The translations under genes were made by a program, and so were the position numbers. A stretch of DNA of 38,345 nt, from positions 1 to 38,345 of IMG/VR virus record IMGVR_UViG_3300045125_000009. One strand, given 5' to 3'. Source of the DNA: a virus. Numbering within the stretch: position 1 is the stretch's first letter; each line of letters starts with the position of its first letter. A model generated the notes under the pieces. The model searched no databases, was not told where the DNA came from, and saw only the letters and a program-made list of their open reading frames with translations. Shown here in pieces: positions 14,877 to 24,088 of this stretch.

Positions 14877-16632
14877 ATGGCTAAGCTCGAGTTCTACAGG
14901 CAGCAAATTATTCCGCGAATTGCGACTCCAAGCACTCGCGGACTTGCTGCTGTCGGCACTCAGGCCGTGGAGACTGCGGAGGCAATCGCTCGAGGAGCGA
15001 CAGCGTTTAGCCGATTAGCCGCTGACCTTGACGAACTGCGCGTTGAGGATGCCTATAACAAATTGCGTGAAAAGCAGACCGATTTGACGATGAACCCTCA
15101 AACCGGGTTTATGAACAAGCGCGCGGCTGACGCGGTCGATCCCAACTTTATGCCGCAATATTCAAGCGGGTTTGATAAGGCAATCGAAGAGGTTTCTGGG
15201 TCGCTTGCGCGAGCGGCAGAAAGATCTGTTTCGGCGTCGCGCGCAAATGGCGAAAGCTGAATACAGCGATTCGCTGATGCGCCATGTAATGCGTGAAACC
15301 GAAGTCTATCGAGACAATGTATACGCGGGCGCTGTAACTACAGAAACGAACAACGCTGCGCTGAACTGGAAAGATCCGGCGAAGATAAAGGATTCGATTG
15401 GGCGAACCGCTGCCAATACTGCGATGTGGGCTGAGCGCAAAGGTCTTAAAGGCGATGCGCTTATGGCCGAGCAGCTCAAGAACCTGACCACCATACACGC
15501 TACCGTCATCCAGTCCGCGTTGGACGCTGGCGATTATGAATACGCGAAAAAGTATTACGAGGACAACAAGACGCAGATCAATGCGCCAATGATGTCCAAG
15601 ATCGAATCCGCATTGGAGTCTGGATCTGCAAAAGACCAGAGCCTGAAACTTGCTCTTGATCTGACTTCTCGCGGGATCTCGTTTAACGAACAGCGTAAAG
15701 AACTAAAGAGCATGTACGCTGCGGGCAAGATCAGCGCAGACGTTTACGACCAGACTTCTATTCGCGTCAACAACGAAGAAGTGCGAGCCAAGTCTCAAGA
15801 AGCTGATTTTAACAATGCGATGAGCGGCAAGGCTCAGGAATGGATTATTAACAATCCCGGCAAGCCTATCGTCGACATGCCGCCCAACTTGTACAACTGG
15901 GCAAAGTCAAAAGGTCAGTTAGATACATTGACTCGCTTTGCTAATAGCGGTGGAGAGGTGGCCGGCGACAACGCCGAGTTCACTCGACTGTACGTTAAAA
16001 GCGCAGATGATCCAGTTTCTTTCATGAAAGAGTTTGACGAGAAAAGCAATCAGCTTGCGACTGTGCTTTCCAAGTCACAATACAACTCTTTGCTAACTCG
16101 TCGAGGGGCGATTGGTAAAGGCGAGCTTCAGGGGCAACAGGCTGCACAGGTTGCAGTAAAAACTGTGAAGATGATTCGCAATGATCTAATCGCTGCTGGC
16201 CTTGACGTTACCCCGAAAGAAGGAAGTGCTCAGGCTCAGAATCTTGCTGCTTTCCAATCGCAGTTAATTGAGGCTATCGAAGCAAAGACTCAGGCAAAGG
16301 GAAGCGCGTTGACTGCTGATGAAGCGCGCAAGGTCGGTCTCGATTTGCTGAGAGAAGGGCGTCTGGTTGGAGCAGGAATGTTTGGCTTTGATAAGACTGT
16401 TCGCCGGTTTGAGGCGAATGAAGCTGACATTCAACGGCACGGATTCCGATACAACTATGACGACATCCCACCAGAGGATCAGAAGCGTTTGTATCGAATC
16501 ATTCAAACTCGTCCAGATATTCGTGAACAGCTTGGCGTCAAGCTCACGCCGAACAAGACCATTACCAGCGCAGATTTCACGCGCGGGATTGAGCTTTTGC
16601 ATACGGCAGAACTTGACGGAGCGACTTACTGA
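14877..16632 (+). CDS. Internal virion protein C (T7 gp15-like)
   Basis: About 585 residues, almost wholly helical. It begins MAKLEFYRQQIIPRIATPST, then VETAEAIARGATAFSRLAAD and NPQTGFMNKRAADAV. One frame change near 15200 joins it to the unbroken remainder, which contains RAQMAKAEYSDSLMRHVMRE, TANTAMWAERKGLKGDALMA, ESGSAKDQSLKLALDLTSRG, WIINNPGKPIVDMPPNLYNW and GFDKTVRRFEANEADIQRHG. Repeated helical hairpins with TPR-like spacing and the site between gp14-like and the giant gp16-like genes fit T7 gp15. That protein forms a periplasmic tunnel during genome entry. The stop overlaps the next ATG (TGATG at 16630-16634). Confidence 0.75.
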
Positions 16633-19600
16633 TGCCGACTTTGCAGGAATGGTTAAACAAGCAGAATGACGAGAACTTGTCTGGAAAACTGCTTTCTGTT
16701 TCCGATGCGAATCCTGAGCTGGCTGCACAGTCAGTTAAGCAGGCTCGCGCAAATAACATCCCACCTAGTCTGACCCCGTTTGAGCCAGATCCGCACTAGA
16801 TCAGCAGGCTCGACTGAATCGTGTATCTAGCACGGTGCAGTCCACTAAGACACTAAAGCAATGGCTGAGCCAGCAGCCTGATGTTGTCGCTGCGTCCGTA
16901 CAGGATGACGTTGAGAACATGAGCTTGATTGAGTCTGTGCTAAGTGTCCCTCGAGCGATACTTTCGGGTGCGCCTAGTTTGACTGGCGGCGTTCTTGGCG
17001 TTGGTGCTATGGCTGCTGGCGCATTGCGTACCGCGGGTGATTACGTCAGCAAGGCTGGCATGGTTCCATTGAGCCCAGCTTCAGCACTACTTTGCTACAA
17101 GTGGAGCGGCAGAGCAGTTCTTTACAGAGCAGGCTCGCGCACAGGAAGGACTAGCCGAGTTCGTTGCCGGAAAGCAAGCAATCGAAGGCCCGATCTCTGG
17201 CGGCATTTACGACGGTCTTAAATCTATCGGTCAGCAGTTGCCTGCTCTGGCGGCTGGTCTTGCTACGCGAAACCCGACGTATGCGCTTAACTTGATGGCG
17301 GCATCAACGACTGGTGATGAATATCTTAAAGCGCGTGAGCAGTTGGATTTTGTGCAGGCTGCACCGTATGCCACGCTGCAAGGATTGATCGAATACGCTA
17401 CTGAAAAAGCGCCAGTCTTTGAGCTTTTCAAAGACCTGAAAGTTGATGAATCTTTCTTGAAGATTTTTGGCAAGCAGATTTTGTTAGAAGTCCCCGGCGA
17501 GCAGGCGGCGACTGTGCTGCAAGACCTGAACGAGTGGGCAAACCTTAACCCAGAAAAGCCGTTCAAGGAGTATCTTGCAGAGCGCCCTGCGGCCGCACTT
17601 GAGACTCTGGTGGCGACGATCGTCGGCGTTGGCGGTAATGTTGCAATCACCAAGAGCGTTAACTACCTACTCCGAGCGCGACACCTACTCGCAGCAGGCC
17701 AACGAGACGGCCGCGTTGCTGGGCGAACTAGATACCTTGGCTAAGGCGTCTGTCGTTCGCCAGCGCGACGTAGAGACATTTGAGGGATTCCTTCAGACGG
17801 TCACGCAGGATAGCCCCGTAGAATCGTTGTATATCGATTCTCAGGCGCTTATGCAGTCCGGCCTAGCCGATGTACTGGCTGCACAATCGCCGACCGTAGC
17901 GGCTCAGCTTGAGCAGGCGAGCGCCGGAACCATGATCCGCATCCCGACCTCCGAGGTTATGGGCCGGTTCAATCAGGAACTGGCTCCGTTGCTGCCAGAG
18001 ATGCGCGTCGATCCGAACGGCATGAGTCAGAAGGAGGCCGAGGAGTACGTTAGCACCCGCGGCGAGCAGCTCCGTGCCGAGGTCGAAAGTGTCCTGTCGC
18101 AGAATGAGACTGAGTCTGCTGCGCAAGAAGCGCGGGCCGCGGTACGAGATACGGTCGCACAGGAACTCATGGCGACTGGGCGCGTGACTCAGGACGTCGC
18201 CGATAACTATGCCCTGCTGACCTCGACGTTCCTATCACGTTATGGCGCAGCGTATGGGGACGACCGCCGACAAACTGTTTGGTGAGCAGCGGCTTCGCGT
18301 CATGGGCGCGGGGCGTGGTGCGTTTGAGCAGGCTGATATTGCCATGCCAGAAGGCACCGCTCCCGGCGCGCCTGTCGATGTGCAAAGCGCAGGAAGATTC
18401 CCATTCTTGCAAAATGAAGATGGGGCGATCGTTGTCCAAGGCGACGTTGATCAAATTCGCGCTTCTTTGCCGCAAGGTGTCCTTGGGCGAAAAGTTCAGG
18501 GCGGTCTTTCGTTTGGTGTGATTGATGCGCCAAGAGTCTTATCTGCATTGCGTGGCGAGAAACTGACGTATGGCAGAGCCGGACAGGTGCTGGAAAAATT
18601 GCCGATGAAAAACGGCAAGTACATTGGTGCGCCTGAAAAATACAACACTCCAGAAACTATCGAAGATCTCAGAAAGAGTCTGCTTGATCTTGCGCTTGAG
18701 GGTGAGTATGGGCGGTTCTGGTATGAAGATAGCGGCAGAGCGATCATTGAATATGTCGGCGGTGATCTAAAGGAAGCAAGAAAACTTCTTGCTTTGATGT
18801 CTATTTATTCTCCGCAGGCAAAGGTAGATGCGAACTCTACGTTTGCGATTCGCGCATGGGCGCAATACAAAGCCGGCCAGCCGATTAGCGTTAAGACCGG
18901 GCATCAAGACGCCAAGGCCAACTGCGGCTATGGCTGACATTGACGCATTCTGGTCTGGTGAAAAAACCGGAAACTTCATCAACAACCTGTTGCCGTTGTC
19001 GATCCTTCGTTGCCGCAGGGCGCGACGATCGACATGTGGATGATGAGGGCCGGCGAGTACGATACGGACGCGCCAGCCAAAACGCAGTATGCGTTTATGG
19101 AAAACGAAACCAACCGTATTGCGCGCGAACTCGGTTGGGAGCCGCAACAAGTTCAAGCTGCCATCTGGGTTGCCATGAAAGCCCGCATGGAAAATGCTGA
19201 CGTTAAAAAGAAAACCGAAGAGTCTTCAGAGAAGAACGGCTGGATTCGTTTTGAGCGAGATGAAAAAGGCGTCAAGCGTCGCATCATCATTGACGAGAAA
19301 CAGCACCGCGATAATTGGCTGAAGTTTGCAAGAGAACACGTTCCCAATGCGGACGACAAGTTTTCTGCTGGATTCCATTTTGGCGACGGTCTTGCGCGCC
19401 ACATTGGGCAAGTTTCGTTTGAGGCTCGACCGGGCAAAAGTACAGGCGTTCTGCCGGGGATTCATACCGCACCTTACGAGCAGCAGTTGGAATTTCAACA
19501 AGCTATTGATCGCGTGTTTTACGACCCGATCAGCGGCGCGGATCTGATTGCCAGTTACCTCGGGCTGCTGACTGATAGCGACATTATTGCCCCCGGCGTA

Positions 19601-22600
19601 TGGGAAGGCGAAGTATCGCCAAGTTCACAACGTAATGTGGTAATGGCTCCAGCTAAAGGTACGGCTGGTCGGGTCGATCCTGCGCAAGCAAAGTTGCTAA
19701 ATATCTATGCTTCGCTGAAGGGTTTGCTAACACGACAGGAAGGGGTTGGCTGGCATAAACCATATTATGCAAGCTACCCGTCGTGACGCCAATGGGCTTG
19801 ATATTAACGTCGGCAGACCTCTTACCCCACAAGAAACCGTTGATTTAAGCAACGCCATTGGCGCGTGGATGCTTGAAAACAACAAGGGTGAAGATGGAAT
19901 GATTCGTTTGCCTTGATTAGTAGCCCGAATGGGATCAGACTTGTCAACTTTGGTGTCATCGAAAATTCGCAGTTGCAAAGCGACATCATCCAAGTCGCGG
20001 AAAAAGTTTTGCCTGATGCAAAGGCAAAAATGTTTTCGTCGGATGGTGATATGCCTTCCAACAATTGGAGAGAAAATTCAGATGGGCAAGATTACGTTGG
20101 ACGGATTCGTGCCGAAGGACGATCCGATGTTTTGGACTGGGCCGCAAATGTTCTCGCGCCCAGAATACAGCAGGTCTTCGAGGACTTCAGTCAGCGGTAC
20201 GGATGGGAGACCCCGGCTCAATCGCCATTGCTCCAAAAGCAAAGCGTGAAGAGTTCCTCAAGGCGAAGGCCAAGAAGTCCGAGGCTCCTTTAGCCCCGAA
20301 GAGCTGACGATCCGGCTGACCAAGGCGCAGGATCTTTCGACGTTCCTGCACGAAAGCGGTCATTTCTACCTGCACATGCTGGTCAATCTGGCGTCACGGC
20401 CAGACGCCCCGGCAGATGTGCGCAAGGACGCCGAGACGATCTGAACTGGTTTGGTGGAGAAGGCACACCGGAGATGAACCAGTTTGATGCATGGCTGAAT
20501 ATGTCGGTCGACGAGCAGCGGCCGAGCCATGAGCGGTTTGCCCGTAGTTTCGAGGTGTACTGCCGAGGCAAGCCCCCTCGACCGAACTGCAACCAATGTT
20601 CGATCGGTTCCGTTCGTGGCTGATGTCTGTCTATCGGTCGCTGATGGAGCGCGCCAAGGCCACGTTCGGTCGCGAGGTGTCGTTCGGTAGGCCATGCAGG
20701 CTGAACTTAACGACGAGGTTCGTGCCGTGTTCGATCGCCTGCTTGCCACGCAGGAAGAAATTGAGGCCAAGGAAGCCGCCCAGTCTCCATGGGTATGCTG
20801 TTCAAGACGGAAGCCGAGGCCAAGAAGTTTGGCGTCGACTGGAATGCCTATCAGGCGCAAGGAGAGGCCGCTACGCAGCAAGCAATCAGCGACCTAGCCG
20901 CCAAGTCCATCCAAGACATGAAGTGGCTGGAAAACGCGCTCGCAGTCGGTTATTGACCAAGTTGCAGCGGGAAGAGAAGGAGCTCGCCGGAATGTGCGCT
21001 CTATGGTGCGGCCGGAGATCCTTCTCAGCCGCTGTACCGGGCGTGGTCATATCTGACCGGCCCTTTGACTGACGACCCGAACGCGGAGCCGACGAGCCGT
21101 TTTAGTCCTGAGTACCTAGAGCAGGTCACGGCCAGCAAGGAAGTGGTGGCCGAACTGCGCAAGCTCAGGATGGTAGCCGGCCCCGTCTGACATCAAGAAA
21201 GGCGTGAGCGGCGAACATCCAGACACGGTAGCCGAGACCTTTGGATTTCTCCAGCGGTTCGGAACTGATCCGCGCCATCCTTGCATCGCCGACCCCAGAT
21301 GAGGCAGAGAAATCAATGCCGCGACTGACGCTCGGATGCTGCGTGACTTCTCTGACTTGTCCACGGCAGAAGGGGCGCAACAATGCAGTCAATGCCGCGC
21401 TGGCTAACGACGCCAGAACTCGGATGGTTGAGACAGAACTGTCTGCGCTCGAGCAGGCAATGGCACCGACTGTCACGATCGGCGGTCGTGAGCAGCGGAC
21501 GCTGCCGGGTGCAGCGAAGGCGTTTGCACGGTCTGTCATTAACCGATTAAAGATTCGCGATGTGCGTGTCAGCCAGTACAGCGGAAGTGCTGCTCGAGCT
21601 GCGCGTAATGCTGACCGTGCGGTGAAGCGCGGGAAGCTGGCCGAAGCTGCGCTTGAGAAACGTAATCAGTTGGTGAACAACTACGCTGCGCGGTTTGCGG
21701 GTGAGGCGCTTGATGATGTGAAGAAGGTCTTGCCTACCTAAAGAAGTTTACGAAGGAAGGCACCCGCAAGAACATTGACCCTGAGTATCTTGATCAGATC
21801 GATCGAATACTTGAGCGGTTCGACCTGCGGCAGAAAACCCTGCGCAGAACTTGATCGGCGTTCTGCCCTTGCTCAGTTTATTGAGAACCAGAAAGAACTC
21901 GGCATCGAACCTGATCTTCCTGCGCACATCGTCAACGAAGCACAGGCTGTCAATTACAAGAACCTGACCGTCGAGGAGTTCGCTGGTCTGGTGGACAGTA
22001 TCCGTCAGATAGAACACTTTGGTCGGTTGGAAGCGGAAACTGTTGCTCGCTAAAGATAAGCGCGAGTTCGATGCCTTGATGGCAGAGATCCGCGCGTCTG
22101 TCATTGCTAACGATCAGGGCCGTGTTGCTGACAATCGCACCCGTACAGATCTTGGCAACATCCTGTCTCGAGCATTCAAGTCATTCACGGCAGCGCATCG
22201 AAAGATGTCCAGCATGTGTGTATGAGATTGATGGCTTCAAGGACGGTGGCCCATTGTGGGATGCGCTGGTTCGTACTGCTAACGAGCGCGGTAACTGGGA
22301 GGCTGACAAGCAGGCTGAGCTAACTACGCGCCTTGCACAGTTATTGAAAGCGTTGCCGAAAGAACGAGCGTTTGGGAAAGGCCGTTATTTCCCGATGATC
22401 AATGACAGTCTGAAGCAGGAAGAGAGACTTGCCGTCGCGTTGAACTGGGGCAACGAAGGCAACCGCCAGCGATTGCTTGATGGCCGCAACTGGACAACGG
22501 ACGGAGTGCAACAAGTTCTCGATTCTCTGTCGCAGGAAGAATGGGATTTTGTGCAGGGCGTATGGGATACGTTTGAAAGTCTGCGCCCTGAGATTGCACG

Positions 22601-24088
22601 GGTCGAACGTAATCTCATGGGCAAGGAGCCTGAGTGGATTGAGGCCGTGCCTATTCAAACCAAGTTCGGCACATATCGCGGCGGCTATTACCCAGCCGTG
22701 TATGACCCCGGCGAAAGTCTGCGCACCGAACAGTTGAACGCTGAAGAAGAAGCGAAGCGACAACTTCGCGGCGCTCGTACCGCGGCGACTGTCCGTAGCA
22801 ATTTTGTTAAGGGCCGCGCTGAGCAGGTCAAGGGTCGACCGATCCTGCTGACGATGGATGCAACCTTCAACGGATTGACAGACGTCGTGCATTACCTTGC
22901 CTACAAGGAATGGTTGGTCGATGCCAACAGAATCCTTCGAGCTGTCGACGGCACGATCCGCGAGCGTTATGGCGCGGAGATGACTCGGCAGTTACGCACC
23001 GCGGTTGAGGCTATTGCCGCTGGTGAGCAGAACAATCCACACGCGCTTGATAAGCCGCTGCGCCATATTCGCATTGGCTCAATGGTTGCTGGCCTTGGGT
23101 TCAATATCGTCAACGCAGTCATGCAGCCGCTCGGCTTAACGCAGTCGATGGTGCGCATTGGGCCGAGGTACATTGCACAAGGCGTTGCTGCCTTTGCAAA
23201 GAACCCAGTCAAACTTGCGACGTCTGTACTCGAGAAGTCCTCGTTTATGCGCAATCGCAAGAGAACGCAGAATAGAGAACTAAACGAGTTGCGCAATAGT
23301 TTGCGAGGCAAGACTGAATCCCGGCAGTTTATCGACGGCGCGATGTTCTTGCCGATGACCGCGATCCAGATGACGGTTGATATACCGACATGGTGGGGCG
23401 CGTATCAGAAAGCACAGACCGAGGGCTTTGACGAGGACACCTCTGTTCAGATTGCGGATCAGGCTGTTCTTGCCTCACTAAGGTGGCGGACAAACCAAAG
23501 ACCTCGCTGCAATTCAGCGCGGGTCTGAGTTTGTAAAAATCTTCACGGTGTCTCTACGGGTACTTCAACACCGCCTACAACCTTGGGGTCGAGCGCATAC
23601 GCGCGACAAACCCACGCAGTCCTTCGCAGGTCGCACGGCTTGCGACCGATTTGTTGTTAATTTATTCAATCCCCGCCGTATTTGGTGCGTTGATCAAGGA
23701 AGCGTTCAAGATCGGCGACGACGATGACGATGAGGAGATTGCAAACAAGTTAGCAGCCGAACAAGTGTCTTTCCTTTTCGGAACGATGGTCGGTGTCCGT
23801 GAAGCCGCGGGCGCTGCGCAGATCATGCTCGGGCTGTCGACCTCCGGCGGTCTTGGGTATAACGGGCCGGCCGGGTTGCGGTTCTTCAACGAACTGAACA
23901 AGTTTGCGCAACAGGCAAACCAAGACGAACTCGATCGGGCATTTGTCCGCGCTGGCGTAAACGTGGCCGGCATTGCCCTGCACTTGCCGTCTGCTCAGAT
24001 CAATCGAACCGTCGACGGAGTGATTGCCATGAGCGAAGGGCGTACTGAGAACCCGATGGCCTTAATCGGCGGGGCTCCACCACAGTAA
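16632..24088 (+). CDS. Giant polyvalent internal virion protein with zincin motif
   Basis: About 2,480 residues after joining more than twenty frame changes. Order seen: start MPTLQEWLNKQNDENLSGKL; a hydrophobic segment near residue 120 (SLTGGVLGVGAMAAGALRTA); a second near 330 (LVATIVGVGGNVAIT); and a helical region with ESLYIDSQALMQSG. Next is a conserved block at nt 18480-19780 (YSPQAKVDANSTFAIRAWAQ, ARELGWEPQQVQAAIWVAMK, PGIHTAPYEQQLEFQQAIDR). An HExxH zinc-protease motif follows in LSTFLHESGHFYLHML (nt 20335-20380, about residue 1240). Long coiled coils come next, then RPILLTMDATFNGLTDVVHY and an amphipathic C-terminal part (IRIGSMVAGLGFNIVNAVMQ) with a DDDDDEE stretch. Position equals T7 gp16. 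Such polyvalent proteins are packaged in the virion and ejected into the host. I see no lytic transglycosylase motif. Confidence 0.8.

Follow-up and report, generated by a model that had tools for sequence, protein, structure and literature searches.

Polyvalent proteins of phages are known to carry zincin-like metallopeptidase (MPTase) domains whose third ligand is located on a second helix (Iyer 2017, PMC5512222), and residues 700–1000 of Bbp10, from the Bordetella phage BPP-1, constitute one seed of the CLCA_X metallopeptidase family (PMC3650047). The element described here is a giant gene at positions 16632–24088 (+ strand) of a 38,345-base virus contig, IMG/VR record IMGVR_UViG_3300045125_000009, which was analysed over its whole length and is hereafter termed the window. 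The gene product is of Bbp10 type and polyvalent as Iyer 2017 uses the term; with both affiliations, it is not a protein of a new kind. The original prediction, made from the letters of the window, could name no family for the architecture between the motif and the C-terminus, a view that does not hold, as the whole protein corresponds to phrog_9880 and is of Bbp10 type, its zincin is already represented among the CLCA_X seeds and such metallopeptidases were included in Iyer 2017. As far as the tools used could show, the new elements are a swappable slot in the middle of the protein, a cassette common to two different backbones and the interpretation of the cassette domain DUF7178 as a predicted DNA glycosylase.

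A constant protein frame around an exchangeable middle

The window gene begins with an ATG at 16632 and its stop codon ends at 24088, both codons having been checked directly in the DNA. The single gene of ~7.5 kb initially proposed is thus correct in its limits, although it is not one open frame here. Lists of open reading frames (ORFs) hold only fragments across 16632–24088, and a MAFFT alignment with the intact relative L005 (80% DNA identity; L numbers designate related loci), whose protein of ~2480 aa counts 2481 residues from ATG to stop, reveals 27 insertions or deletions (indels) that are not multiples of three. Because the gene is frame-broken and was left unrepaired, protein-level claims are based on the intact relatives L002–L005 and on isolates retrieved by tblastn, and comparison was made between proteins since a nucleotide search (blastn) among phage records gave a match of only 2%. 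Matches to phrog_9880 run piecewise along the window gene (best 3.5e-121). Identity to the window gene in the C-terminal part reaches 92–93% for L002–L005 and 49% for Bbp10 of BPP-1, the closest named relative.

BLASTP comparison of the giant proteins delimits two conserved stretches, at aa 20–585 and 1202–2494 of L005, with a variable part between them. L005 and L002/L003 share 86% identity on the left of this slot and 92% on the right, and their slots do not align. On DNA the left border of the slot is sharp and falls after the GRGEFEQ codons in L002, L003, L005 and L006; in the window, the conserved N-core (16632–18331) ends at the corresponding junction G-x-G-R-G-[AE]-F-E-Q. The conserved C-core extends over 20657–24088 and contains hydrophobic helices together with the acidic run that had been predicted for the C-terminal part, found at ~23717. 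The comparison shows a constant N-core, C-core and HExxH domain arranged around an exchangeable middle.

The contents of the slot are diverse. A Pfam scan of 28 slot regions and 2 second inserts identified ART-PolyVal, PBECR1, PBECR5, MuF_C, GNAT, LPD23 with DUF6782, DUF3293/S-adenosylmethionine (SAM)-lyase-like, DUF7178 and RadC domains, the classes present in other phages comprising ADP-ribosyltransferase (ART), RNase-like (PBECR), acetyltransferase and SAM-lyase-like types. The BPP-1 slot holds PBECR1, while the slot of L002/L003 holds a DUF7178 domain of a second, divergent type and lacks the cassette of the window. In L016, the slot content at aa 786–855 resembles DUF3293 / S-adenosylmethionine lyase, a kind of enzyme that phages are known to use against restriction. 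The exchange of slot content between near-identical phages suggests that selection on the slot strongly favours diversity, as counter-defence would lead one to expect.

In the window the slot (18389–20200) is occupied by a mobile cassette of ~605 aa (AGRFPF ... QRYGW, bounded at ~14–616), both ends of which are the same in other giant proteins. The separate conserved block first noticed at 18480–19780 is real but larger than believed, as it forms part of this discrete cassette, which reaches ~150 nt before the zinc motif. The variability of the slot ahead of the protease, and the presence of its cassette in unrelated giant proteins, had both been overlooked. Of the 47 loci fetched, 43 have a carrier protein with no full BLAST match to the L005 N-core or to its zincin and C-core; one of these 43, L055, matches only over a short N-core stretch. 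Pfam detects LPD38 in the cassette carriers L048, L049 and L073, and more widely in five of ten contigs tested, the Bbp10-type contigs having none. In a tree of 31 cassettes (a quick tree, with some long branches) L005 groups with the LPD38 carrier L048 with a Shimodaira–Hasegawa-like approximate likelihood-ratio (SH-aLRT) support of 100, and the approximately unbiased test rejects a tree that unites the three cassettes of Bbp10-type proteins in a single clade (p-AU 0.00085). On the basis of these two results, sequence comparison shows that the cassette moved between unrelated backbone families. As a separate observation, nearly all of the carriers L048–L092 have one or more HExxH motifs in other parts of the chain, mostly in unrelated context; a protease and a glycosylase-like cassette recur together.

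The polyvalent nature first proposed for the protein is supported by the LPD22 domain (PF18834) at the N-terminus of L005, which scores 43.1 bits against a cut-off of 28.6 and maps approximately to 16692–16957 of the window (from L005 aa 34–122, indels uncorrected), and by the invariant HExxH. With DUF7178 in mid-protein in the same Pfam scan, also above its cut-off, and with ART, PBECR and GNAT domains in homologues, several unrelated domains occur in one chain. The late/virion context is provided by gene order: tail/internal virion proteins, giant gene and tail fibre follow each other in BPP-1 and in the Pseudomonas phages AF and UFJF_PfDIW6, and the ORFs of L005 are arranged in the same way. 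The gene is located where podoviral internal/ejection proteins are located, in agreement with the gp16-like position originally assigned.

The zincin-like domain and candidate processing sites

The zincin-like metallopeptidase domain occupies approximately 20265–20656. Its HESGH motif (20349–20363) is present, as predicted, within FLHESGHFYLHM, although the window translation places this segment at 20343–20378, one codon before the position first reported. The motif HExxH, expected by chance ~0.011 times in a protein of such size and composition, does not vary in any of the 29 homologues aligned, which come from phages of Bordetella, Caulobacter, Vibrio, Xanthomonas, Pseudomonas, Acinetobacter, Nostoc and others and whose identity goes down to 28%; members devoid of the His-Glu pair were looked for and none was seen among the 29. 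The search for a downstream third zinc ligand yielded two candidates, both equally invariant (29/29): the glutamates located 57 and 64 residues past the second His of HExxH (L005 numbering), within the motif HExFARxFExYLxEGKAP. In the window the second motif reads HERFARSFE (20531–20554), with the Glu codons at 20531 and 20552. The combination of HExxH with a downstream Glu ligand that defines zincins is therefore found in every aligned homologue, and this invariance supports the assignment of the HESGH domain as a likely zincin. The pattern also agrees with the zincin-like domains of Iyer 2017 and with the choice of Bbp10 as a CLCA_X seed. Sub-threshold Pfam matches of the domain, all weak, were to Tox-MPTase4, M78 and Reprolysin; a PDB profile search with the zincin alignment gave matches at chance level and was discarded.

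For the zincin fold, with its three-stranded sheet, structural modelling gave a less clear picture. AlphaFold predicted a mostly helical domain, with a predicted local distance difference test score (pLDDT) of 61.5 and the two motif helices (76–91) as its sole confident part, and Foldseek with this weak model found no zincin match. Such a helical, low-confidence model would also suit a structural or encapsidation module that performs no proteolysis in vivo. A precedent is the virion RNA polymerase (vRNAP) of phage N4, which carries such an MPTase domain in a region needed for encapsidation and yet is packaged unprocessed (PMC5512222), a fact that also counts against self-cutting by the window protein. 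A purely structural role would, however, not need the strict invariance of HExxH and both glutamates in 29 homologues as distant as 28% identity, and it is regarded as unlikely. The zincin could instead itself be the effector, cutting a host protein after ejection, with the slot as a mere insertion-tolerant place; Iyer 2017 gives an effector role as an alternative for such domains (PMC5512222), and metallopeptidase effectors are known in conflict systems. A host-specific effector should nevertheless vary like the cargo, whereas all full-length homologues, from the phages of Bordetella to those of Nostoc, retain the zincin and differ in cargo. The zincin also comes immediately next to the slot, preceded by a linker with a conserved Gln. 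The effector role is rated quite improbable.

The Gln of this linker is near-invariant and lies 26–37 residues before HExxH in nearly every member, despite the variability of the linker itself. In L005 it precedes HESGH by 30 residues and is at least 90% conserved over the 29 homologues, the preceding residue being mostly F, Y, N, L or R; its codon was read directly at 20259–20261 of the window. In LPD38-type carriers the motif IxFS[RNQK] is often found just past the cassette, in the same role as the Gln mark. The slightly wider form IxFS[RNQKD] occurs 57 times in the LPD38-type group against 26.7 expected by shuffling, and 19 times against 24.5 in the Bbp10 group; it follows the cassette in L050, L053, L054, L055, L059, L061 and others. 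Across the slot, [hydrophobic][FN]Q is enriched only 1.66-fold over shuffles; with so modest an enrichment, the processing-site idea rests on the position of the Gln and not on overall counts. Both the Gln and the IxFS marks are candidate processing sites, and a structural linker would look alike. In L028 (aa 1000–1215) and L029 (aa 1157–1320), a second insert was observed inside the zincin domain itself, where it separates the helix of HExxH from that of the glutamates. The insert of L029 is of ART type by Pfam, and both inserts close with Gln marks, LNQG or FMQG.

DUF7178 as a predicted DNA glycosylase

DUF7178 (PF23802) forms the first half of the cassette, at approximately 18500–19220 of the window, and scores 45.7 bits in L005 against a cut-off of 27; the broken window fragment alone scores 20.5 bits. 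A glycosylase of the OGG-type helix-hairpin-helix (HhH) family HhH-GPD was suspected from the sequence before Foldseek was run against the PDB. With the AlphaFold model of the cassette (pLDDT 87.8; predicted template modelling score, pTM, 0.78), the AGOG 8-oxoguanine DNA glycosylases 1xqp, 7ou3 and 7p8l were recovered at ranks 1, 4 and 5 with Foldseek probabilities of 1.00, 0.92 and 0.87, and these three are the sole PDB matches with a probability above 0.25 among the 50 listed.

In the L005 cassette model, predicted helices 183–194 and 203–212 are parted by a short hairpin. K204 starts the second of these helices and D227 stands just before the next one, 228–233, so that model and conservation together agree with the layout of such enzymes, an HhH with a catalytic Lys, a G/P-rich loop and a catalytic Asp. 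K204, D227, Q268 and W272 are invariant in 31 of 31 cassettes. The window has kept all four codons intact, with the candidate catalytic Lys (GEKTGNF) encoded at 18963–18965, the candidate catalytic Asp (TIDMW) at 19031–19033 and the candidate base-recognition pair Gln-x3-Trp within QAAIW at 19154–19168. An SPQ motif was also read from the window at 18809. K204 and D227 are placed like the catalytic Lys and Asp of OGG1 (K249/D268/Q315/F319) and AGOG (K140/D172/D218/W222; PMC3397491, PMC9638937), and the spacing of Q268/W272 equals that of Q315/F319 and D218/W222. Seven divergent DUF7178 members preserve the same pattern of K, D-[RTS]-H and Q-x3-W, and one of the seven, gp22 of Microbacterium phage Cece, is annotated as 'glycosylase'. 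The DUF7178 half of the cassette is, on these models, most likely folded as an OGG/AGOG-like helix-hairpin-helix glycosylase/apurinic-apyrimidinic (AP) lyase. A glycosylase-like fold is considered fairly probable, and confidence in any given substrate is lower.

Several results oppose this interpretation. The E values of the three AGOG matches are 0.021, 0.40 and 0.40 and their TM scores by target length are 0.40–0.43. Alignment of DUF7178 with Nth/MutY by hhalign was not significant in several versions, one version that put both catalytic lysines in register being counted as a hint only. PF09171 (AGOG) has no match in the window record, PF00730 and PF09171 are absent from the Pfam scan of the intact L005 protein, and the assignment covers only the DUF7178 half of the cassette. 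The lack of significant profile similarity to canonical HhH-GPD enzymes and a Foldseek E of 0.02 at best would equally fit an unrelated helical fold, in which the conserved Lys, Asp and Gln-Trp serve some other DNA- or nucleotide-related activity. This alternative is doubtful, as it must account for AGOGs being the only listed matches above the 0.25 level, for the agreement of four catalytic or recognition positions and for the D-[TR]-H form of divergent members ('TIDTHAV', 'CVDRHAF'), typical of HhH-GPD enzymes. For the second half of the cassette, a LigT-like/2H phosphoesterase (PH0099, E 0.039, the best match of the cassette profile by hmmsearch against the PDB) was considered and rejected, the invariant columns lacking the two HxTx motifs. 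No mention of DUF7178 was found in the literature searched, and the word 'glycosylase' is absent from the main text of Iyer 2017 (PMC5512222).

If DUF7178 is a glycosylase, its AGOG-like fold and the catalytic residue pattern of 8-oxoguanine glycosylases are also compatible with a repair enzyme for damaged incoming phage DNA (e.g. 8-oxoguanine in stored virions), which would be first at the lesions through its delivery with the DNA. This function is possible, if on the unlikely side: the other slot contents (ART, PBECR RNases, GNAT, SAM-lyase-like) look aimed at the host or its defences, and DNA glycosylases are known in phage-bacteria conflict, on the bacterial side, as weapons (PMC11078745).

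Proposed mechanism and comparison with known systems

The reading of the locus as a whole, to which an even chance is given, is that of an ejected Bbp10-type protein in which a self-cutting zincin frees a swappable cargo, here a predicted DNA glycosylase/lyase. Its family and the order of the genes suggest that the protein is packaged in a BPP-1-like podovirus virion and ejected with the DNA. The zincin would most likely cut its own chain close to the junction marked by the conserved Gln, either while still in the head or once inside the cell, and cleavage would free the slot cargo, in this case the ~605-aa cassette. The freed glycosylase/lyase could then act on DNA as soon as infection begins, its presumed target being host DNA, a modified-base defence substrate or damaged incoming phage DNA. 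Set against this sequence of events, no virion proteomics or ejection data were found for the Bbp10 family in the literature. A more specific version sees a virion-delivered base-excision glycosylase/AP lyase as the interchangeable warhead of a self-cleaving polyprotein, with the boundary marks hydrophobic-[FNYL]-Gln (Bbp10) and IxFS[RNQK] (LPD38-type) as the processing sites that let the cassette plug into two backbones; it remains speculative and is thought improbable in its full form.

Under the proposed mechanism, a giant phage protein known by wrong names ('crystallin', 'lysin') would become a delivery device open to testing, with constant ends, a constant protease and an exchangeable effector. 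If true, the alignment of Bbp10-family proteins would point to new virion-packed effectors, and a DNA glycosylase would join the kinds of enzyme suggested to accompany phage DNA into bacteria. The labels 'crystallin beta/gamma motif' or 'lysin' on the Bbp10-type proteins of L035, L036 and L042 appear to have been copied between records; no Pfam domain to match these names was seen in L005 or in the scanned slot regions. Similarly, L044 (PQ492659.1, Limnohabitans phage DC33) is filed under Inoviridae, yet its genome measures 39 kb and encodes a giant protein of Bbp10 type, and the label looks wrong.

The absence of a visible lytic transglycosylase, already remarked upon in the original prediction, was upheld by profile search: PF01464 (soluble lytic transglycosylase, SLT) is absent from the gene and from the whole window record, the gap being noted at 15172–16632 as well as record-wide, and it was also not found in the records of L002–L006, L014 and L015, several of which are partial contigs. 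In BPP-1, SR18, AF and L020 the lytic transglycosylase domain belongs to a separate protein of 703–759 aa, which in BPP-1 is Bbp11, encoded immediately upstream of Bbp10. The window clade may have lost the transglycosylase or may use another wall-degrading domain. A reverse transcriptase (PF00078) was likewise not found in the window record, which gives no sign of the tropism-switching retroelement of BPP-1.

Among known systems, the T7 gp16-type ejection protein differs by its SLT transglycosylase domain. Bbp10 of BPP-1 (NP_958679.1, 'crystallin beta/gamma motif-containing protein'; phrog_9880) is similar in the N-core (36%), in the zincin and C-core (47%), in gene position and in the possession of a slot. 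In contrast, the BPP-1 slot spans ~150 aa with an RNase-like PBECR1 instead of a ~605-aa DUF7178 cassette, and the gene that precedes Bbp10 encodes a soluble transglycosylase. CLCA_X (PMC3650047) shares HExxH and the Bbp10 seed, but its consensus HExxHxxxD is replaced by HESGHFYLH, with His, in the window clade and by HExxHxxxE in most relatives. AGOG/OGG enzymes (1xqp, 7ou3, 7p8l) resemble the cassette in the predicted HhH-GPD topology, with a Lys starting the second HhH helix, an Asp starting the next helix and Gln/Asp-x3-Trp/Phe in the C-terminal part; they differ by the absence of significant profile similarity, by a Lys-Asp spacing of 32 in AGOG versus 23 in the cassette and by the embedding of the latter in a phage virion-type protein. 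The zincin-like MPTase polyvalent proteins of Iyer 2017 (PMC5512222) are likewise multidomain late-gene proteins with LPD22, HExxH plus Glu and effector-type neighbours. To this known polyvalent theme are added here the constant ends with a sharp-bordered shared slot, a protease always adjoining that slot and the exchange of a cassette between two backbone families.

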